Shown one piece after another: positions 10,978 through 49,620 of a DNA stretch of 64,000 nucleotides (its first letter is position 1; each line of letters opens with the position of its first letter). Source of the DNA: Margaritispora aquatica. Lineage: Eukaryota > Ascomycota > Leotiomycetes > Helotiales > Discinellaceae. The DNA lies in contig VJWN01000023.1 of NCBI GenBank assembly GCA_007644065.1, positions 445,434-509,433 on the forward strand, read 5' to 3'. A model generated the notes under the pieces. It made no database searches. It was not told the origin of the DNA and was given only the letters and a program-made list of their open reading frames with translations. Made by a program: the position numbers and the translations under genes.

Positions 10978-12875
10978 ATGCATTTCAATACAGAATCCCT
11001 CATTTTATTGGCAGCTTTGCCTTTTGCCATAGCTTCACCTCTTGGAGTATGTCTGTCTCTATTGTCAAGCTCAAGTTTATCTAAATAACAAGCTAACCTC
11101 CAACTCTCAGACCCTTGGTAATGCCCTTGGTCACCGTCAAGTAACAACCAATGTTGCTTCAGCCTGTAATATTCAGTGCCCGGTGTATAATGCTGGTTAG
11201 TTGCCCATATTCTTTGAATTATTGGTGCTAACAAGAAAAAGATCACGCGGCTATTCTTCAACGCATCAGCGCTCTTGAAGCTTACTTCACCGGTGGCGGG
11301 GCGGCTCCTCCTCAGACTCAAGCGAATGGCGGCGTTCACTGTGTACCTGTTGGTGGAAGCAGCGGTGTCGTCGGAGGTACCGGAGCTATCAATACAGGAG
11401 CAAACACTGGGTTCGGAGGCAATCCCAATTTCGGTAATCCTCAAGTTGGTGCCGGAGGACAGATCTCTAGCCAGTTCGGTGGCTCCCAACCTGCCTCTGG
11501 AAGCGATAACCCTGACCAGTTTACGGGAGTTGGGGGAACTCAAACCGGAGCTGGTGGTCAAAATTCGGGTCTTGGCAACGGTGGAAGCGTTATCCCACCA
11601 GCTGGAGGGCCAAACATAGGTGTCGTTCAACCTGGTAAAGGTCCCAACACTACACCAGGCAATTCCAACACTGGCTTCACGGGAGGCATTAGTTTTGGCC
11701 CAGGAGGTATCACCGGCAACGCAGGCTTCAGCGGCAATGGAGTGAACGCAAATGTTGGTGTTGGCCCCAATGGCGCTGTCACTGGAAACGCGGGGTTTAG
11801 TGGCAACGGAGTGAATGCAAATGTTGGTTTTGGACCAAATGGTATCACAGGTGGTGGTATCAGCTTCGGTGATTCTGGAACGAAGCCTTCTACTACCACG
11901 CCGAGCACCAAGCCCAAGCCTAATCCCGCGACTAAACCTGCTCCTGTCAAAGGCAATGGAGGTATCTCGGGTGGCGGAGGAGGACACAGTAGTGGTGGCG
12001 GAGGCTCATCTGGTGGAGGTTCAAGAGGTGGAAATGGAAACCAAAACCCAGATCAAAAGGATCCTAATATTCCAGGTGGGACTCCCACTGATCCAAACGC
12101 GCCCAAAGATCCTAACAACACAGATGGCACACCTGCTGATCCCAATAATCCGGATGGAACCCCAGCTGATCCAAACAATCCCGATAGCACTCCAACTGAT
12201 CCGAATAATCCTGACGGAACACCTCTCGATCCCAACAATCCGAGCGGGACTCCCGTAGACCCGAATAATCAGGATGGAACTCCTATCGACCCAGAGAATC
12301 CCAATGGCGCACCCATTGACCCGAACAACCCAGATGGCACGACTCCTCCAACTGAGATCGATCCTAATAACCCAGATGGAACCACCCCACCAGCAGTTGA
12401 AAATCCTCCTACCACTGGAGAAGAAAGCACCGGCTCTAGCGAGGAGGTTACAGATGGGGCCGTGCCAGGTGAAGAACAGGGACCGACCGAGGAAGAAGGA
12501 AATGGTCAAATTATTGACCCTGAGACTGGATCTGGAGAAGAGACAGGAGGCGAGATTGTGGATCCGGTGACGGGCGTTGAAGATGGCAGTGGAGGTGAGG
12601 CATTTGATGGTGGAGAGACGTTTGATGGCGGGGAGCCGTTCGATGGAGGCGAGCCCTTTGATGGAGGAGAGACCTTTGACGGAGGAGATATTTTTGATGG
12701 CGGCGAAACTTTCGATGGAGGTGAGATATTTGATGGTGGGGATGAAGGCGGAGACTTTGACTTCGGCGGCGGTGAGGGGGGCGATTTTGATTTTGGGGGT
12801 GGTGATGACTTCGATTTTGGGGGAGGATTCGATGACTTTGGAGGAGATTTCGGCGACTTTGGGTTCAAGGGATAA
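10978..12875 (+). CDS. Secreted repetitive Gly/Asn/Pro/Asp-rich protein, probably cell-surface or matrix
   Basis: Not a recognised family. Exons 10978-11046, 11111-11195 and 11242-12875 give 1788 nt in frame, 595 residues. Residues 1-19 are a classic signal peptide ending at AIAS-P. A short ordered head follows with two Cys (CNIQC) and a helix (AAILQRISALEAYF). The rest is low complexity in blocks: Gly/Asn-rich with a duplicated GNGVNANVG unit, a Lys/Pro stretch, a Ser/Gly stretch, a 10-residue DPNNPDGTPx array (about residues 325-438), a Glu/Gly region, a six-residue xxFDGG array (about 503-555) and a final DFDFGGG tail. The tail is strongly acidic and would bind cations such as Ca2+. No GPI signal or membrane helix ends the protein, so release or wall entrapment is likely. 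Signal peptide and repeats are seen directly; the role is inference. Confidence 0.8.
12061..12400 (+). repeat. Coding 30-bp minisatellite (DPNNPDGTPx units)
   Basis: About ten diverged 10-residue units. DPNN is nearly constant while the tenth residue changes (A, T, L, V, I). Copy number probably varies among strains. Confidence 0.8.
12595..12750 (+). repeat. Coding 18-bp minisatellite (E[TAP]FDGG units)
   Basis: Eight six-residue units with FDGG constant and the two preceding residues varying (EA, ET, EP, DI, EI). It merges into a DFDFGGG tail. Confidence 0.8.
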
Positions 12876-16528: not shown

Positions 16529-17250
16529 TTAAAATCTGGTGAAAGGAAGCCTGAGAATACGATTAGCATCAATGATCACACATCTACAAGGCTTATTTGG
16601 AGACTTACCACTTTCCCCTCAAAGTAATAACAGCCCATGCATTCCCTGCCTCATCAACCTCCTTCTCCACCTTTGTACTGAAAGAAATAGCACTCATAAT
16701 ACCATCCCCAAACTTCTCATTCAAGACCGCCTTGTACGCATAGCCATAATTCTGGACAATCTCATAGAGTCTGTAAATCAACGGCTCGACAGGCGGCATG
16801 GGTCCCGCACGTCCTCGGTCCGGGAAACCAAGCAATTGCTTGCCGAGTATCTCTTCCGAGACATCAAGGATCTTGGAGAGCTTGGCGACGTCTTCGGCGG
16901 ACGCTTGGGCTTGTCCGTAGAAGAGTGCGGCAACGGCGACTTCAGAACGGCCGAGCTCTTTAGCAATGGACTCGAATGAGAGAGATTTGGTGGCTTTGGC
17001 GTCGAAGAGCGTCTTGGAGGAAGCAGGGAGGCGGTCGATGAGGGAGGTCTGGAGGGAGGATTGTCAGTAGAAGTTTTTTAATGAATTAGAACTGCTCAAT
17101 GGCATTGTTTCGAACTCTGAAAGAACCTTTGTGTTAAGGATAAGGACATTGTGAGATGTGGTATTGTGATGTGTGCGGGGTAAGCGACATGTCTGAATTG
17201 GTGAAATTGATACTCACGTCAAGCACCGCGATCTTGCTGTTGTCTGTCAT
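16529..17250 (-). CDS. CYN1: Cyanate hydratase (cyanase, EC 4.2.1.104)
   Basis: Converts cyanate plus bicarbonate to carbamate, which breaks down to ammonia and CO2; a homodecamer in characterised enzymes, used for detoxification and nitrogen supply. Three exons, 17218-17250, 16609-17048 and 16529-16550, give 495 nt and 164 residues, the normal size. The N-terminal helical part has the family phrase [18 protein letters not shown]. The C-terminal catalytic part has [18 protein letters not shown] with the active-site Arg and nearby Glu, and [11 protein letters not shown] with the active-site Ser. The last exon codes only LPFTRF after GKW. It is 22 nt long and is found only by splicing GTAAGT...GCTAATC...CTCAG; without it the protein would stop at GKW-TAA. 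The first intron is 169 nt, long for this window. Confidence 0.95.
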
Positions 17251-17690
17251 GTTGAATATGATTTCTGGATGTTCTACACTCAATCGAAGAGGAAATCAAG
17301 AGAATATAAACAACTGAAAGAGGGGCATCAAGCTGTACGCCCTTGGAATTGTAAGATCTTAGCTACCGCGGATAAGCATTCAGTGATCGTCATTCCGGGT
17401 TAAATCCGAGTCATGTCCGGCGGGGTAGAAGAGCTGAGTTCTGATGCTGTCATAGGCAGGTAACTCACTCATAACTTGAGGAAATCGGTCTTTGAAAGAG
17501 GCTCAAACCACAGATATTCCCGTGATCCCCTTCAGGGGAGTTCCGAAATGCCAAGCAGTTTAATGTCACGGTGGGTTGGGTATTGGCAAAGACATTGCTT
17601 AGTAATCTGATTACGAGATTGTTGCCTGACCAACTGTTTCTAGGTCGACCTTCGACCTTCGACCTTTAACCCAACGCCTCAGTCCTCGAA
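17251..17690. promoter_or_regulatory. Divergent promoter between cyanase and the NLR gene
   Basis: 440 bases serving both genes. A tandem heptamer (CGACCTT, three copies) lies at about 17647-17667, just before the NLR start. Confidence 0.4.
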
Positions 17691-20617
17691 ATGGATGGTC
17701 TTAGTGGAGCCGCAAGTGTCATAGCTGTGATCGACATCTCTGCAAAAATCTTCGAACTTTGTCAAACATATGTCTCAGCGGTAAAGGAAGCTAGGAAGGA
17801 TATTCAGCGTCTCCGCAACGGGGTAACATCTCTTCAAGATGTCCTGACTGATGTGAGAGATCTAGCTGAAGACTCGAGCTCACCTAGACGGTCAGTCTTC
17901 AGCTGTCTCAATCAGCATGACGGCCCAGTACAGCAGTGTGAGAGAGACTTGAGACAGCTGGTGGTGCAGCTAGAGCCAGGAGAAGGAGAGGGTAAGATGA
18001 GGCAATTCGGTCTACGAGCATTAAAGTGGCCCTTCTCAAGTAAGGACATAGATAAACGGCTTCAGATTATCAACGGCCATAAGGCGACTTTTACCCTGGC
18101 GTTGACGAGTGACAATTTGCAGGTCTTGTACTAGCATAATCCTGTGGTTCAAGCTAACATTTATCAGTGTTCTTACTCGCGCTATTAGAGATGATATCTC
18201 AAGGTTAGGCGATGGTCTAGCGGATATTCAAATCAAACAGAGAGCACTAGCAACAAGTGAAAAACAACAGAAAATCCGACGTTGGCTATCATCACCAGAT
18301 CCGTCTTCTAACCATAACGCTGCTTGCAAAGCACGTCAAGCAACTACAGGGGAATGGTTCTTGAAGAGCGATGAGTTTGAGAAATGGAAGATGACTTCTA
18401 GATCTTTCCTCTGGCTTTATGGCATTCGTAAGTAATCGCCTCAGCTAGGCTACTAATAGCTAATAAAGATATTTCAGCTGGCTGCGGGAAAAGTGTCCTT
18501 TGGTAATGACTCCACACAAATGATTTATTCTGAATTTTTTAATTAAATTCGCAGTTCTACGGCTCTTGAAGCAGTCAAGTCTCAATACAAGTGTAGTCCC
18601 ACCGTGGCAATTGCTTATTTCTACTTTGACTTCAATGATACCAAAAAGCAGAGGCACGACAAATTTACGCATTCACTAATCGAGCAGTTAGCCGAACAAT
18701 CAGCGAAAGCCTGCACTTGTCTGGAATCGCTCTTTTCTTGCTGCCGTGATGGGAAGGAGCAGCCTATGCAGCGTGCCCTTGAGTCTGTGTTACAGCAAAT
18801 GCTGGATGAATTTAAGGAGACGTTCATTATTCTTGATGCTTTAGACGAATGTCAAGAAAGGGAAGAACTTCTACTTCTATTAGGTCATCTTAAGTCCTGG
18901 GGGGCAGGGAAATTGCACATTCTTGCCACAAGTCGAAGAGAGCGAGATATCGAAGAAGCTCTCGCATCATTGGTTACAAGTGAAATCTGCCTACAGAGCG
19001 CTTTCGTTAATGTTGACATTGAAACCCATATTTCTGAACGACTTCGGAACGACTCAAAACTGAAAAGGTGGCCTGATAACGTGCGAGGAGAAATTAAAGA
19101 TGCTTTGATGAAAGGAGCACAAGGGATGTATGTCGAAAAATTTTCTCAAGTTAATTTTTGAAACAACTAACATGAGTTCAAGGTTTCGTTGGGTTGTATG
19201 CCAACTAGACGCACTTCGGAAATGTTTGAAAGTGGACGCTCTACGGAAAGCACTAAAGTCTCTACCGAAAACTCTAGATGAAACATATGCTCGTATATTG
19301 CTCAGCATTGATGAGGACTACAGTCAAGATGCATTCAGAATTCTCCAATGGCTGGTATATTCGGCTCGGCCACTTCTGATAGAAGAGATGGTTGAAGTTA
19401 TCGCTATCGATAGTGAGCAGTCACAATTCAAACCCGAAAACCGACTTCTAGATCCTCGAGATTTATTAGTTATATGCTCCAGCTTGGTAACAACTGTAAC
19501 GATGACGGCGGAAGACGATGACTATGTCTCTATCGAGATGACAGAGCTTAGGTTAGCTCATTTCTCTGTCAAAGAATACTTAATTTCTGATCGAATTCGA
19601 AATGGAAAAGCTTTCCGGTATGATATACAAGAAGGAGGAGAGGAAGAAATTGCAAGTTCTTGTCTACAGTACCTTCTTCATTTTGAAAGGGGTATACTCA
19701 ACCGAGCAAATTTGAACACATTTCCGCTAGCTGAGTATGCAGCGAAATATTGGTGTCGTCATTTCCGAGCAACAAAGGATTTCGATCGAGGGAGTAAGCT
19801 CGTTGTACAGCTTTTGCAAGGAGACACTCTTCGGAACTGGATCTGGCTCTGTAACCCAGGCCCGCCATGGTATGGAACGGATATGGATAGGGATATCGCC
19901 ACAATTGCCTCTCCGCTATATTACGCATCAAGAGAAGGTTTACTTGGGCCAAGTTCAGTTTTGATTGAGCAAGGGGCTAATTTGAATGCTCAAGGTGGAC
20001 GCTACGGCAATGCACTGCATGCAGCTTTAGCTGAAGGTCACGAGGCAAGCGCAGCACTCTTGATCGGGAAAGGCGCCGATGTCAATGCTCAAGGTGATCA
20101 CTACGGCAATGTACTACAAGCAGCTTCAGCTAAAGGTTACGAGGTAATCGCAGGACTCTTAATCGAGAAAGGCGCCGATGTGAATACTCAAGGTGGACGC
20201 TACGGCAGTGCACTACAAGCAGCTTCGGCTAGAGGTCACGAGGCAATCGTAGCACTCTTAATCGAGAAAGGCGCCGATGTGAATGCTCAAGGCGGAGTCT
20301 ATGGCAATGCACTACAAGCAGCTTCAGCTAGAGGTTACGACGCAATCGTATTACTCTTGGTCGAGAAAGGCGCCGATATAAATGCCCAAGGTGGACCCTT
20401 CGGCAATGCACTACAAGCAGCTGCTAGAGATTACGAGGCAATCGTAACGCTCTTAATCCAGAAAGGCGCCGATATAAATGCTCAAGGCGGAGAATACGGC
20501 AGTGCATTACGAGCAGCTTTACTTAATGGTCAAGACGCAATCGTAGCACTCTTGATCGAGAAAGGCGCCGATGCTCAAGGCGGATACTACGGTAATGCAC
20601 TGCAGGCAGCTTTCTAG
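17691..20617 (+). CDS. NLR-like STAND receptor: SesA/NACHT_N-type N-domain, NACHT NTPase, ankyrin repeats
   Basis: Fungal NOD-like receptor, the class used in heterokaryon incompatibility and non-self responses. Exons 17691-18127, 18168-18427, 18478-18502, 18555-19127 and 19183-20617 give 2730 nt, 909 residues. The first intron is only 40 nt (GTACTA...GCTAAC...ATCAG). The N-domain (1-145) matches the helical type that precedes NACHT domains. The P-loop is G-x-PGCGKS at 231-238, its Gly split over a 25-nt exon, and Walker B is FIILDALDEC around 331-340. A winged-helix-like region follows (LPKTLDETYARIL, LAHFSVKEYL). From about residue 696 to the end are seven to eight 33-residue ankyrin units that are nearly identical at DNA level. 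The last unit has lost six bases (GADAQGG instead of GADVNAQGG), then stops in mid-repeat, so the C-terminus may be shortened. Confidence 0.85.
19975..20617 (+). repeat. Highly similar 99-bp ankyrin-coding tandem array
   Basis: Units share long identical runs (for example around GAGAAAGGCGCCGAT). One unit lacks a codon and another lacks two. This degree of identity points to recent duplication or gene conversion. Confidence 0.85.
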
Positions 20618-20910: not shown

Positions 20911-21542
20911 TCAGTCAATGGAAGAGGAAGAACATTGCCCCGCGGTCCGGCTAGAACTTTCCCACTCTACAATTCTTCGGCAGATATCTTCTAGCTCGAC
21001 ATGCTGTGTACTTATCCATTTACGATACAGTGCAAAAGTATAAGCTCCTATAAAGAAATCAGGAAAAGGAGAGCAGGCAACGTGGATATTTCTTCTCATT
21101 AGATCCATCTTACTAAACCATTGTCGGGAATTCTGCCGATTAACACGTACTTATCACAAGCCTGTGCCCAATTTTGGAGATCTTGTATAATAAGCTGGCC
21201 TTTACCTTGACTGGCAAGAAAGTCTGGGACATTCGAGACACGAGAAATGGTTGTATCCGAAATCTGCCGCAGTTCTCAACATCGAATATAGCAAGACCAG
21301 CTAACTAACTTACTTCGTCTGCAGTCTAATCCCAACATGTCCGCTTCTGCCCTGTTGTATGAAGTGTCCATTCCAGCATTGGATAAAGCAATCATAACGA
21401 ACACTTGGTCCATGAGAGCATGCGCCTGACCTTATCCACTGCGGTTCGGAGATCCGTTTTCTCCCTTTGTGCACTGATATCTGTCAATACAGACAACGTA
21501 GCCCGAGTGCCACCTTTTACCCATTTTTTCGCCACGGGTGGT
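20911..21542 (-). pseudogene. Decayed protein-coding remnant, family unknown
   Basis: Three protein-like blocks in different minus-strand frames follow each other in a sensible order: a basic/hydroxylated block ending KVRRMLS (about 21542-21420), a block DQVFVMIALSNAGMD...MLGLDCRR (about 21415-21315), and NVPDFLASQGKGQLIIQDLQNWAQACDK (about 21250-21150) with a further open block down to 20911. The first two blocks are off by one base without any intron signal between them. A GTAAGT donor follows DCRR, but the best acceptor leaves the next block out of frame. I therefore read it as a gene broken by small indels. I do not recognise the family. Real coding potential is an inference from composition. 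Confidence 0.35.
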
Positions 21543-22293
21543 TTCTCCTTACGTCTAGATGGACGATACTATTAGAAGTTGTACTTATATTATACAGTCA
21601 GACTAAGTCTCTAGAGCGAGATGTCATAGTTGTCTAATTATCCGGGATTTGTATGCACATGAAGGGTGTAAGTGGGTCTCCATCCAAATACCGAAACCCC
21701 TTGTCACTTAGGAGATTGTTGATTTGCAAACAATACATTGGACTCAGCAAGATTGGAGAGAATCGCGAGTTTCCTTTTCATATCCAGTCTCAAATGACAA
21801 CTCGAAACCGGTCCATTCACATTCACAGTCACGATTCGGAATCACAATCATGCAAAAAGCCAGCCAAAAGTTTGAACGAGAACGCCTAACCTCTGTAAAG
21901 AGAGCTCAGCAATTCTCAAACCATATACATTATATCCTATCTCCTCAATTCATATATAAAGCAAGACCTGTACTCCATGCAGACTCATCCCCAAAATCCA
22001 GACCGTCGATGCGATCGGGAGAAAACGTCTCCTCTCCCTTCAGTCCGGTAAATGTGTAAGAAGCCTCTGCATAGAAGCCTTATCGAAGAAGCGAAATTTT
22101 GAATCGAAAATTGTATTGCGTCTTACCAATGACTGTAGTGCAGGCGGTAGTGTAAGGTGAATGTGCGTTTCCTCCATGTTATCAAGTCCTATCCCATCTC
22201 TCAACCTTGCCAGTGAGATTGAAACCAACTGTCCTGGCTCCATCAAGCATCAAGACCATGTAGAAACCGGCACCACCATTCTACCACGGAAAT
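21543..22293. other. Intergenic
   Basis: A/T-rich, no convincing gene. It contains the 3' flank of the small repeat-peptide gene. Confidence 0.45.
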
Positions 22294-22467
22294 TTACATA
22301 ATGTTGCATCCACCACCTCCTGGGCTGCGCTGGACGGAACAACCGCCACCTCCTGGGAACTTCTGGACCGAACATCCACCTCCGCCTGGGCTGCGCTGGA
22401 TAACGCAGCCACCTCCACCTGGGAACTTCTGGACAGTGCAGCCGCCGCCTCCTGGAGAACGAACCAT
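22294..22467 (-). CDS. Candidate hybrid-type (repeat + CaaX) lipopeptide pheromone precursor, 57 residues
   Basis: The whole protein is five 11-residue units: [SF]-P-G-G-G-G-C-a-a-[Q/M], joined by a single K or R. The five tetrapeptides starting at Cys 10, 21, 32, 43 and 54 are CTVQ, CVIQ, CSVQ, CSVQ and, at the very C-terminus, CNIM. CNIM is a textbook farnesylation CaaX box, and X=Q boxes are also accepted by farnesyltransferase. Units alternate SP...QK and FP...QR, so the gene looks built from 66-bp double units. The ATG context (ATCAAAATGG) is good, a TATAAAG lies about 135 bases upstream, and there is no intron or signal peptide, which is normal for a-factor-type precursors. Trichoderma HPP1, the type member of h-type pheromones, likewise repeats (LI)GC(TS)VM and ends in CaaX, but with Kex2 sites between units; here only single basic residues occur. 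It could instead be another small prenylated protein. Confidence 0.7.
   Translation of the reverse strand: MVRSPGGGGCTVQKFPGGGGCVIQRSPGGGGCSVQKFPGGGGCSVQRSPGGGGCNIM
22294..22467 (-). repeat. Coding 33-bp tandem repeat, five units in a 66-bp higher-order pattern
   Basis: The PGGGGC core is constant in all units. Units 1, 3 and 5 are of SP type, units 2 and 4 of FP type. Confidence 0.9.
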
Positions 22468-22598
22468 TTTGATGGGTTTGGGTTGGGGGTTGGAAGCGTT
22501 GACTAGTTGTTTGTGTATATTGTGTGTGTAGTGAATGTTTGAGTGTGAGGCGAATGTGATGAGCTGGTGAAAAGAAGATTGAAGGGAAATGAAGGGGA

Positions 22599-22605
22599 CT
22601 TTATA
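22599..22605 (-). promoter_or_regulatory. TATA box (TATAAAG) of the repeat-peptide gene
   Basis: Reads GTCTATAAAGTCC on the minus strand, about 135 bases before the ATG, followed by a C/T- and CA-rich leader. Confidence 0.6.
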
Positions 22606-22750
22606 GACTTTTGACAGAGGGATGGATAGGAGGACATTGCGGAAGATTGCCATGAGTATTGGAATTTACAGGAGGAAATCAAAGAACTTTCAGCCATCGG
22701 CGTCGTCGAAGCCAAATTGGTAAAGGTACGACCCAGCTATGAAAGGCGTT

Positions 22751-22762
22751 CTTAACATTGTT
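22751..22762 (-). promoter_or_regulatory. Putative HMG-box site 1 (AACAATGTTAAG)
   Basis: First of three exact copies of this 12-mer upstream of the repeat-peptide gene. Its core AACAATG fits the SOX/HMG consensus WWCAAWG bound by HMG-type mating regulators. About 290 bases before the ATG. Confidence 0.55.
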
Positions 22763-22964
22763 GTGCCCACTTCTTATCAAATAGGCTGGTCATGACTCTT
22801 TTCTTAGTGCATTACCCCTTCACAGTATCTTGAACAGCAAGACCGACTTGATAGAGGATGAACGTTCGTGGAAAAGAAACGAAATTCTTTTTGTCTCTTG
22901 AAATATGTCACATGAAAGTGAGATATGTGAATTGAAAGAATGAGACTCGAGATTGGATAGATTC

Positions 22965-22976
22965 CTTAACATTGTT
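22965..22976 (-). promoter_or_regulatory. Putative HMG-box site 2 (AACAATGTTAAG)
   Basis: Second exact copy, same orientation as site 1, 214 bases further upstream. It shares one extra flanking base on each side with site 3. Confidence 0.55.
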
Positions 22977-23268
22977 CTCTACTCCAACCAATTGCGCAGT
23001 GACTAACAGTTCATTCCGTGTAGCTTTCAGAAGATGCAAGGGGTTGTAGCGACGCATCGGAATCTGATGTCCAATCAGGACCTTGATATTGTCTGCGATG
23101 ACCCTCTTCAATCATTCTATCTCATAACGAAAGAGCTTGCTACCGTAGCTACATCACATACTTCGATAACATTATCACCAATTTCTTTGAACTGATGATT
23201 CCATCAGTCCTAATTCTAGAGAGACTTGGACGAGTCCAGGCACACGAACACAGACATGAAAGAACCTC

Positions 23269-23280
23269 CTTAACATTGTT
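23269..23280 (-). promoter_or_regulatory. Putative HMG-box site 3 (AACAATGTTAAG)
   Basis: Third exact copy, same orientation, 304 bases beyond site 2 and about 800 bases from the ATG. Confidence 0.55.
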
Positions 23281-24355
23281 CCTCGCTTAACAAACCCAAG
23301 CGAGCGGGACCTCCTCAGTCCTTGTCAGCGAATACTACGCCACTTCAAAGCCACTATAAGATGATGGTGAAGAGTGATGTTGCTTCAGGTTGGTGAAGCT
23401 TCATTGGTTGTTCGATGCATGGATGCGGTCTCAAATTGTCCTCTCAGGGAGTCTTCGTTAGGAGATGAACAGAAAAGGGTGTCTTAAGCGTGTAAACATC
23501 CAGGTCTTTTCTGTACATAAATTACATTGGCTTCTCTAGACTCACTATCATGCAGCCCTTTGGAATTGCTCATACCTATTCGTAAATCTTAATCATGAAT
23601 AGAAGTTAGGATACCCTACAGCCTCTTAATACAAACTCTTAAACCCCCTCAATCTGTTTTACCATGAATGAAAAGCCTCACAACCAATTGCTCACTGCCT
23701 CGACCTTCATTGATGCTATGGATTTTCTCAGATGATCGCCCTCATACACAGTTCGCCATCAAGTCGAATATCAATGAATTTCATCAGGTGTGTCGGCGTC
23801 TTGGTTCCAGAAGACTATCTTGACAACACATGTCCCATCATCACACCACAACCATCCCGTTCAATCTCTCCATCACCAACTTGGCATCCACACAAAGTGC
23901 AGGTGAATAAACAAATTCGCAGGTGTAAACCTCCGTCCAGGACAATACCCAAGCGACTTGCCGAATGCGTCCTAGCTCCCGAACAGATAACGGGACGACT
24001 GCCGGGCCAAGACTCCCCACACGCAAATCGCAAGACGCACAACACATTTGCCAAGAGATATCCGCAGCACAATCTTGAAGCGATGCTTGTTTGCAGTGCC
24101 GATAGGGAAGGAGATGCCCGGTAGACACCGCTTAGGGTGGCAATCGTGAGCTTCGAGAAGGTGGAAGGGTCTTGGCGATGGAGGGGCAGAGGTGGGAAGG
24201 CCTTGGCGAGGGTGTTGGTTGGCAAGCGATGAATGTGTGAAGTCGTAGTAGTGAGGATGTTGATGAGAAGTAGATAAGTATATATGGTGGTGAGGTATTG
24301 CTCAAAAGTTGTCATGATCCTCAGGTTGACATCTTAGCTATCCTTCACTGTCAAT

Positions 24356-47788: not shown

Positions 47789-49620
47789 TTAACCCATCTC
47801 CTCATCCTCCATTGCCTCTCGCACGCACCTCTCACAACAACATCCATCCGGCAACCAACCCAGCAGCTCTTCAGCTCTCTCCCAAGCTTTCATATTTTGT
47901 TTCCCTGGGCCTTTGAAGAAGACATAGCTCGTGAAGACTTCCTCCCCCTTTTTGATATCCCTCAAAGCTCGGTAAACACAACGAGAAGAGCCGAAGGAAG
48001 CCTGTATAAACATACTTTCTGGATTACAGGTGTGGTTGAAGAACGAATACATCGGGTCGATATGTGCGCAAAACTCGGACTCGTTGATGTAGTTGTTGTC
48101 TATGCGGTGCCTGTACAATGTTAGTGGTTCAATGCGAAGCAGAGCATGATACCCGGAAAGGATGAACGTAAATAGAAACACCTACCAAAGATTCTCTAAC
48201 ACCCAAGCATCAAATCTCAAGTCAGCAAAAACATCCACACCAAGTCGCTGAAGAATTTTGACCGGTTCGACGACTCTACCTCGGAAATTCCAGTTCACAG
48301 CAAGGTCACTCTGATACTGAGGAGCTAGTCTCGCAAAATTGGGGTTCTCCAAGGGATGGGATCCACCTGTTTTGCAAACAGCTAGCATTCTCAGCCAGAT
48401 CAAACTGCAAAATGGAGGGTTCGCATCGTCACAGAAATTCATGTATGGAGCTTTGGCAGCTTTCTCGTAGAGATAAGCGAAATCCTTACCACAAAGCGCT
48501 CCATGGTATGATTTCTGGGCAATATCTTGGCATTTAGGTCCGCAGAAGCGAAGTGCTGGGCAGCAAGGAAATTCGACTGTGCCGTTTCCAAGTCGACCAA
48601 AGCAATTGTAGCATGCTGCGCCACTCATCCGGTTACATTTAACAGTCAAGCAACCTTGTGAGTCGAGTATGAAATCCCCTGCTTTGATATTACGAGTTGC
48701 AAAAATTCCAAAGCAGTTGATTCCGAGAGGAGACTTCTTGACTTCAAGCATGCCACGCGAGCACACCCCCATTTTGCGACTCGCTTCTAGAATGACTTGG
48801 TCACTTCGAATAGAGAACCTCTCGGGAATCCAGGGATATGGGTTGCGCAGCTGTCGACCAGCATCACCGGTCATTGATATCTCCTGTACGACTCCGGTTG
48901 ACATGTTTCTGCTGACAAACCACTGTTCAAGCTCGGATTTAGCGGCAAGGATGAGAGGATCCGTCGGATATGCAAGCAAAGCCTGTTCACATATCTCTTT
49001 GACGTCAAAGCAAGCACGGAGAAGACATAATGCATCGATCAGGAGTTGGTAGCTTCGGTAGCTGTATTAGCACCCGGCTGCGGTATAATGGAAGAGAATG
49101 CAGCTTACGCTTCTAAGCGTTCCTGGAAGAGAGCCCCCACCACCAGGAAGCTAACCATGTCATATGTGAAGTCCTTCCATGTACCCTGTTCGGATCAGCA
49201 CCAAGTTCGTACACAATGTCTAGCGCTTGATGTTACCTTCTTCCAACTTCCGCTCCACTGAACCATCCCAAATTGTAACCAAACCTCGTCACCTAGTTGG
49301 CCTTTCCTCTGGAGCGCTGCATCACAAAGCAGTATTGCTTTATGGGCATCCGAAGCTGCCAGCTCAGGGAAGCCCAGCTTGATAAGCGTTTCCGCCCGAG
49401 TTCGCCAGCCAGTTGGATTGTATGGCAGTCCAGATATTCGCTTTGTTTGGCTTCGTAGCTGCTTTTGAAGCTTGATCAAATCCTGTGAACTTCAGAGTCA
49501 GCGGGATGAATTAGTCCGTCCCCCGAGGTGATGACAACTTGCCTTGATAGTTGGTACAGGCCATTCTGGTGCCAGGCTTGAATTGATGGAGGGCTTCCAG
49601 ATAGCCCACTTGTGATCCAT
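47789..49620 (-). CDS. TPR-like / MYND / SET domain protein (SMYD-type lysine methyltransferase family)
   Basis: Predicted S-adenosylmethionine-dependent lysine methyltransferase, substrate unknown. Exons 49543-49620, 49237-49482, 49109-49185, 48186-49061 and 47789-48110 give 1599 nt, 532 residues. The first intron starts with GC, not GT (AG|GCAAGT...CACAG), a recognised minor class. The N-terminus has TPR-like helices (GLPYNPTGWRTRAETLIKLGFPELAASDAHKAILLCD). The SET core opens with GIFATRNIKAGDFIL (about 251). A Cys-rich insert with Cys near 284, 287, 300, 301, 307, 311 and 324 corresponds to the zinc-binding MYND-like region, and the SAM-pocket motif is N451-H452-T-C-N-P, followed by KKGEEVFTSYV. 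The post-SET Cys cluster (GCCCERC) is at the end. The MYND spacing is not perfect and may not bind two zincs. Confidence 0.85.

Follow-up and report, generated by a model that had tools for sequence, protein, structure and literature searches.

A short gene of Margaritispora aquatica (Leotiomycetes, Helotiales) encodes a 57-residue precursor of five tandem units, each ending in its own CaaX-like box, and is probably a precursor of a farnesylated a-type mating pheromone, cytosolic and leaderless. The a-factor of filamentous ascomycetes is hard to find outside Sordariomycetes. The gene lies on the minus strand of the window, the whole stretch of 64,000 nucleotides analysed here, and has a second copy on another contig (Table 1). 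Its translation reads MVRS-PGGGGCTVQ-KF-PGGGGCVIQ-RS-PGGGGCSVQ-KF-PGGGGCSVQ-RS-PGGGGCNIM-stop, five units of 11 residues with the pattern [KR][FS]PGGGGC-a-a-[Q/M]. The original prediction of a 57-residue ORF with five 11-residue units, a PGGGGC core and the boxes CTVQ, CVIQ, CSVQ, CSVQ and CNIM is borne out in every part on this strand. Over four periods, 66% of the residues are identical to the residue 11 positions before them, as compared to a maximum of 37.5% in Markov-2 simulated 64 kb windows (n = 20); the periodicity is not due to chance.

Table 1. Features of the precursor gene, its second copy and their surroundings (positions are those of the window unless a contig or locus is named).
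Feature	Position	Strand	Description
Five-unit precursor CDS	22294..22467	minus	57 aa, ends CNIM-stop
Unit 1 RSPGGGGCTVQ	22429..22461	minus	internal CaaX-like box CTVQ
Unit 2 KFPGGGGCVIQ	22396..22428	minus	
Unit 3 RSPGGGGCSVQ	22363..22395	minus	
Unit 4 KFPGGGGCSVQ	22330..22362	minus	
Unit 5 RSPGGGGCNIM	22297..22329	minus	CNIM: actual C-terminal CaaX box
Leader, TATA element to ATG	22468..22593	minus	without any ATG; within the stretch alignable to second copy
TATA element CTATAAAGTCCCC	22594..22606	minus	13-mer; TATAAA at 22600-22605, -138 from ATG
Upstream element ACAATGTTAAG, copy 1	22751..22761	minus	context CAACAATGTTAAGAA
Upstream element ACAATGTTAAG, copy 2	22965..22975	minus	context GAACAATGTTAAGGA
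Upstream element ACAATGTTAAG, copy 3	23269..23279	minus	context GAACAATGTTAAGGA
Cyanate lyase ORF	16605..17063	minus	PF02560; only match detected in genome
Second precursor copy	G000:C18:349939-350118	minus	59 aa, MAFKHF then five PGGGGC units, ends CSLM
L026 57-aa CaaX protein	L026:1501-1674; C18 pattern match 259372-259386	minus	Cys-rich, MCTSS...DGYECCCIPIPCTVM

A search of the genome (42.4 Mb, 49 contigs) with the precursor gave one further match, the second copy (E 5.6e-24, 81% identity). Unit-by-unit alignment of the two copies shows 47 nucleotide differences, 28 of them at third codon positions, with dN 0.196, a dS of 1.29 that is near saturation and a dN/dS of about 0.15. Across the 45 pairs of the 10 units, the PGGGGC core carries 148 synonymous differences and not a single non-synonymous one. 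Only 11 amino-acid changes separate the copies where 28.7 are expected at random, and none of 20000 simulations yielded as few. The precursor peptide is under purifying selection and, since the second copy keeps the peptide though the DNA has drifted, the five-unit ORF is a real gene. The second copy also preserves the frame, the five units and a terminal box (CSLM). Clear DNA similarity of the copies extends from about 139 bp before the ATG to near the stop codon; beyond these limits there are only short matches with E values of 0.14 or worse. Leader and coding part together align at 70% over 322 columns. The other ORFs of at least 80 aa in the window found no match in 40 kb of sequence surrounding the second copy.

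Several features of the units are invariant in both copies. The last residue of the box is Q in all eight internal units and M in both terminal ones, a K or R directly follows each of the eight internal boxes, and a2 is V, I or L in 10 of 10 boxes. Neither copy contains a K/R pair. Kex2 processing of the precursor was considered and discarded. Hydropathy indicates no signal peptide in either copy, the highest 15-residue means being 0.60 (from residue 9) and 0.37 (from residue 45), neither strongly hydrophobic. The N-termini MVRS and MAFKHF run straight into the first unit and, by eye and from the low hydropathy, are not of the hydrophobic kind. The frame is open further upstream and would give 119 aa if begun at the ATG at 22653. 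We prefer the 57-aa start as the probable one, because a TATA box lies between both ATGs and in the second copy a stop codon interrupts the frame between TATA box and ATG. The PDB returned a single weak match to the precursor (E 0.22).

The two copies also share putative promoter elements. The 13-mer CTATAAAGTCCCC occurs identically before the second copy, with TATAAA at -149. The exact 11-mer ACAATGTTAAG is found three times in the window, always upstream of the precursor and in gene orientation, and two more times in the 40 kb that surround the second copy, again upstream and in gene orientation (15-mers at -646 and -690). No further exact occurrence was seen in 54 loci plus the window, which add up to about 275,000 distinct positions and hold five one-mismatch forms elsewhere; for the 15-mer with up to two mismatches the simulated expectation is 0.0 per 64 kb. 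The ACAATG core of ACAATGTTAAG presumably resembles an HMG-box site. The genome contains a STE3-family receptor gene, matched in two adjacent stretches, and exact ACAATGTTAAG was not found in the approximately 1.4 kb before it.

Concerning the locus, N. crassa, M. grisea and G. zeae have their a-factor gene in the neighbourhood of cyanate lyase, the locus under comparison further contains EBP2, two hypothetical genes and a MYND protein, and in Nectria haematococca an h-type ORF sits between cyanate lyase and EBP2 (all in cited passages of PMC3068285). The present gene shares the vicinity of cyanate lyase, at a distance of 5231 bp with ankyrin-repeat ORFs in between, and is located on the 5' side of cyanate lyase, not directly downstream. 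It does not share EBP2 in the same locus: EBP2 (C16:70287-71036) is on the same contig, which makes up 1.3% of the genome, about 397 kb away. The precursor's match to the Sordariomycete-type locus is near, not exact. For one of two copies to lie this close to the single cyanate lyase gene the chance is about 5e-4, and about 0.9% if any of the three named markers is allowed anywhere in the window, figures which refer to a link noticed post hoc on inspecting the neighbours. Around the second copy, no marker of the cyanate lyase type was present among the nine ORFs scanned. The reading as an a-type pheromone gains strength from the existence of a second copy, from the promoter elements common to both and from the nearby cyanate lyase gene.

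Some other features of the window were recorded. Between cyanate lyase and the precursor (17670-20617, plus strand), a PigL_N ORF (17670-18134) and an ankyrin-repeat ORF with 6.4 copies of a 99-bp repeat (19112-20617, plus strand) are perhaps one gene. A SET-domain gene at 47789-49066 shows a MYND-like Cys stretch by eye, and Pfam reports SET only. A low-complexity ORF at 11232-12875 (plus strand) contains DPNNPDGTP and FDGGE repeats. By one fixed motif definition, four other CaaX ORFs occur in the window and were judged to be due to chance, the mean being 3.0 per simulated 64 kb, and the 30 kb around EBP2 hold none.

A putative a-factor of Leotiomycetes was described in 2023 as a protein of 45-64 aa with a Ser/Thr-rich start, a GY and mostly a CTVM end; its authors, in the passages cited, doubted a pheromone role, since expression was not mating-type-dependent in three species (PMC10569646). 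Canonical patterns of the form GY-C-a1-(I/V/M)-M plus TRR, with a1 being T, I, M, A, V or mainly S/T, gave no match in our genome. A genome-wide scan without GY, covering CTVM ends (TGY-ACN-GTN-ATG-TRR), gave 24 matches as compared to 6 with the reversed control pattern. On reading these 24 loci, 4 had TGG instead of a stop and 20 had a stop; one, L026, fits the published description and was missed by the GY patterns because its GY does not adjoin the box. Its protein is Cys-rich (MCTSS...KTKCIECDGYECCCIPIPCTVM, a stretch CIECDGYECCCIPIPCTVM and the end CCCIPIPCTVM) and, by length, Ser/Thr-rich start, GY and CTVM, appears to correspond to the published gene BCIN_13g03330. Its best relatives, at 79-88% identity, come from Diplocarpon, Leptodontidium, Mollisia, Cadophora and Hyaloscypha, the first three of which are Helotiales within the Leotiomycetes by taxonomy look-up. 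The ITS of the genome appears helotialean too. Homologues also occur in the Sordariomycetes Apiospora and Gaeumannomyces (class looked up), and in Colletotrichum and Fusarium, which we take to be Sordariomycetes as well. Another of the loci, L025, has two neighbouring minus-strand ORFs with a shared C-terminus TYYCTVM (L025:86-322 and L025:1501-1815; C13 pattern matches 551774 and 553189), possibly preceded by a first exon whose start looks signal-like (MKSSTLI../MKSTTLI..), and with acidic and basic stretches containing KR; secreted-type precursors with a CaaX-like end would be topologically odd.

L026 could accordingly be taken as the real a-factor and the five-unit gene as an accessory. Its agreement with the published type speaks for this, as do its ends, since 46 of 55 homologues finish in CTVM (31), CTIL (8), CVVM (4) or CTIM (3); the other nine extend beyond the box or lose similarity ahead of it, probably an effect of gene prediction. 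We nevertheless consider it a doubtful alternative. The protein occurs in Sordariomycetes too, where an h-type precursor has been published for F. solani, it lacks repeated units, exact ACAATGTTAAG is absent from the fetched L026 locus, and the doubts of the 2023 authors apply to it. Being Cys-rich and kept in both classes, an L026-type protein appears a weak candidate for a mating pheromone. L026 itself, as another short, widely conserved, Cys-rich CaaX protein, illustrates that a terminal CaaX occurs outside pheromones too, and the five-unit gene might likewise encode a small protein that is tethered to membranes by prenylation and does not act as a pheromone; lipid would then be attached to the terminal Cys alone, and the Gly/Cys repeats would have another use, such as metal binding or a function at the membrane surface. 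This is unlikely, more so than the previous alternative, as eight internal boxes keep an aliphatic a2, a Q and the K or R thereafter, for which a terminal anchor offers no obvious reason; moreover, the layout is that of the Huntiella a-factors as given in the cited passages, and a marker gene of the a-factor locus is nearby.

Two further explanations carry far less weight. Fungal RiPP precursors with Kex2 repeats have a signal peptide and dibasic sites. The outline of repeated cores with basic separators resembles such precursors of secreted ribosomal peptides or effectors, but neither copy shows a signal-like stretch or a dibasic Kex2 site, and a Pfam scan of 19 further ORFs, a subset of the window genes, showed no recognisable tailoring-enzyme cluster; we hold this origin to be very improbable. 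Hardly any credence at all is due to the view that the minus strand carries no gene and that the sequence is non-coding repeat or belongs to the plus strand. There, a 76-aa proline-rich frame is indeed open antisense to the precursor (22301-22531), but in the second copy four stops interrupt it within the repeats and the minus-strand frame stays open throughout, the substitutions track the minus-strand codon frame, and Rfam found no family in 21500-23500.

Few relatives of the precursor were found. A protein search of 5.8 billion sequences, NCBI Helotiales proteins included, gave two distant matches with a single-sequence query (1787 candidates), and an alignment query (7974 scored) had the same two proteins among the matches listed. 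These proteins, P0001 and P0002, contain repeats ASPGGGC[NVS][VL]M-[KR] with M ending every box, at E 6.1e-5 and 0.067, the latter not significant alone, and their predicted protein models have no CaaX at the end. They may represent a second, distant lineage with the layout of the five-unit precursor. In viral contigs, 29 stretches matched the pattern and none was confirmed. No published repeat-type precursor from Leotiomycetes was found in the open-access literature searched; missing annotation is, in cited passages of PMC10569646, a common trait of pheromone genes. MATalpha gave no match in the genome in a search that was without a positive control match, and a search for HMG domains gave six rows. 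One of these, L041, is no longer assigned to MAT1-2-1, as eight flanking pieces gave Pfam TIP49, Mus7 and AAA ATPase and no SLA2 or APN2; its HMG box may be Rox1-like.

In the reading as an a-type pheromone, farnesyltransferase would modify the terminal Cys of the precursor, a CaaX protease would then take off aaX and a Ste14-type methyltransferase would cap the Cys. A cut at the basic residue would free a peptide such as (F/S)PGGGGC-farnesyl methyl ester, to be carried out of the cell by an ABC transporter and to reach the partner's STE3 receptor. As farnesyltransferase works on boxes at the C-terminus, the internal ones need to be exposed beforehand. If the chain were cut after K or R and this residue trimmed away, CSVQ, CTVQ or CVIQ would become a new C-terminal CaaX box, and the chain could be unzipped from its C-terminus, one unit at a time. 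As all boxes and all eight basic residues are kept in both copies, such C-to-N unzipping appears the most economical reading of the sequence. Boxes ending in Q can be used in yeast, where Ydj1 CASQ is farnesylated, and an aliphatic a1 and/or a2 appears to be required by CaaX proteases (both as given in cited passages). That internal units are in fact released we regard as about evenly balanced. With somewhat less than even confidence, we put forward three readings jointly: that the five-unit gene encodes the actual a-factor, in some Leotiomycetes at any rate, and is the positional orthologue of the Sordariomycete gene beside cyanate lyase; that the published Leotiomycete 'a-factor' is a Cys-rich CaaX protein without mating role; and that ACAATGTTAAG drives both copies under mating-type control. 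If it is the true a-factor, the cyanate lyase linkage, and perhaps the repeat layout, would be older than the split of Leotiomycetes and Sordariomycetes. A repeat-type precursor near cyanate lyase would provide a cheap and concrete search handle for the a-factor across Helotiales, and a further lineage for asking how internal CaaX boxes, unusable until exposed, become prenylated.

Comparison with known precursors is made from passages of the cited papers, further ones being PMC3236058 and PMC9231725. The closest layout is that of Huntiella, where an a-factor has at most five units of 12 residues, every unit carries a CpaX box and a genome holds up to seven a-factor genes; a-pheromone genes of Ceratocystidaceae encode between one and five peptides, seven to ten residues long and followed by a box each, and a hydrophobic N-terminus is reported (PMC10182648, PMC13037118). 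All five units of both our copies are repeat units of this type. Shared as well are the short precursor without signal peptide, the several units, the single basic residue and the multiple gene copies. The type is defined in addition by expression in MAT1-2 strains and a role in mating (PMC10182648, PMC13037118). Unlike these Sordariomycete genes, the present one comes from a Leotiomycete, has a PGGGG core instead of, for example, RSINQSSP, always ends its internal boxes in Q and its terminal box in M, and lies near cyanate lyase, whereas the loci reported for Ceratocystidaceae have laccase or tubulin/nucleolar-protein genes as neighbours. From the Leotiomycete putative a-factor (PMC10569646), likewise a short CaaX protein, the precursor differs in that the former has a terminal CaaX only, a Ser/Thr-rich start and a GY, according to the passages cited.

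The original prediction had proposed an h-type-like precursor with a different core. Repetition and prenylation of an a-type pheromone remain the best reading, and the Gly4 core counts as new, but membership of the h-type in the strict sense is lost: that type is defined, in the cited passages, by three copies of (LI)GC(TS)VM, one of them C-terminal, and no unit of either copy contains this motif, the units reading GGC(T/S/V)(V/I)Q and the ends GGCNIM or GGCSLM. As both the h-type consensus and the hydrophobic N-terminus are lacking, we regard the precursor as a variant, not a plain member. With HPP1 of Trichoderma reesei and its Fusarium relatives it has in common a repeated CaaX-like motif including a C-terminal copy, the absence of a signal sequence and the position of the TATA box (-133 in HPP1, -138 here). 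It differs by five units instead of three and two gene copies instead of the single hpp1 of T. reesei; HPP1 has two Kex2 sites, in these passages reported only in T. reesei, and neither of our copies has a dibasic site (PMC3068285). HPP1 is essential for male fertility in Trichoderma, its Kex2 sites are dispensable, and its authors drew a comparison with rhodotorucine A, whose maturation enzymes were stated not to be known in that 2010 paper (PMC3068285). The separation of units by one K or R, earlier regarded as odd, loses this character, as the Huntiella peptide after a preceding CpaX box always begins with a single arginine (PMC10182648, PMC13037118), rhodotorucine A units are separated by CaaX-like spacers and the Kex2 sites of HPP1 can be spared.

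Like the present gene, the rhodotorucine A precursor consists of tandem units with CaaX-like spacers. It has a single Lys as separator, and its core differs from PGGGG. The RHA genes of Rhodosporidium toruloides encode several mature peptides in one precursor (PMC3068285, passages cited), and the farnesyl group of rhodotorucine A is named in the title of a cited 1989 paper. Unlike our ascomycete gene, rhodotorucine A is from a basidiomycete, and the RHA genes of R. toruloides and red yeasts are located in the MAT region. The layout of several units with a CaaX box each is thus already known from Huntiella and relatives and from Rhodosporidium, and the architecture is not new; what is new is its lineage in Helotiales within the Leotiomycetes, its Gly4 core and its locus near cyanate lyase.
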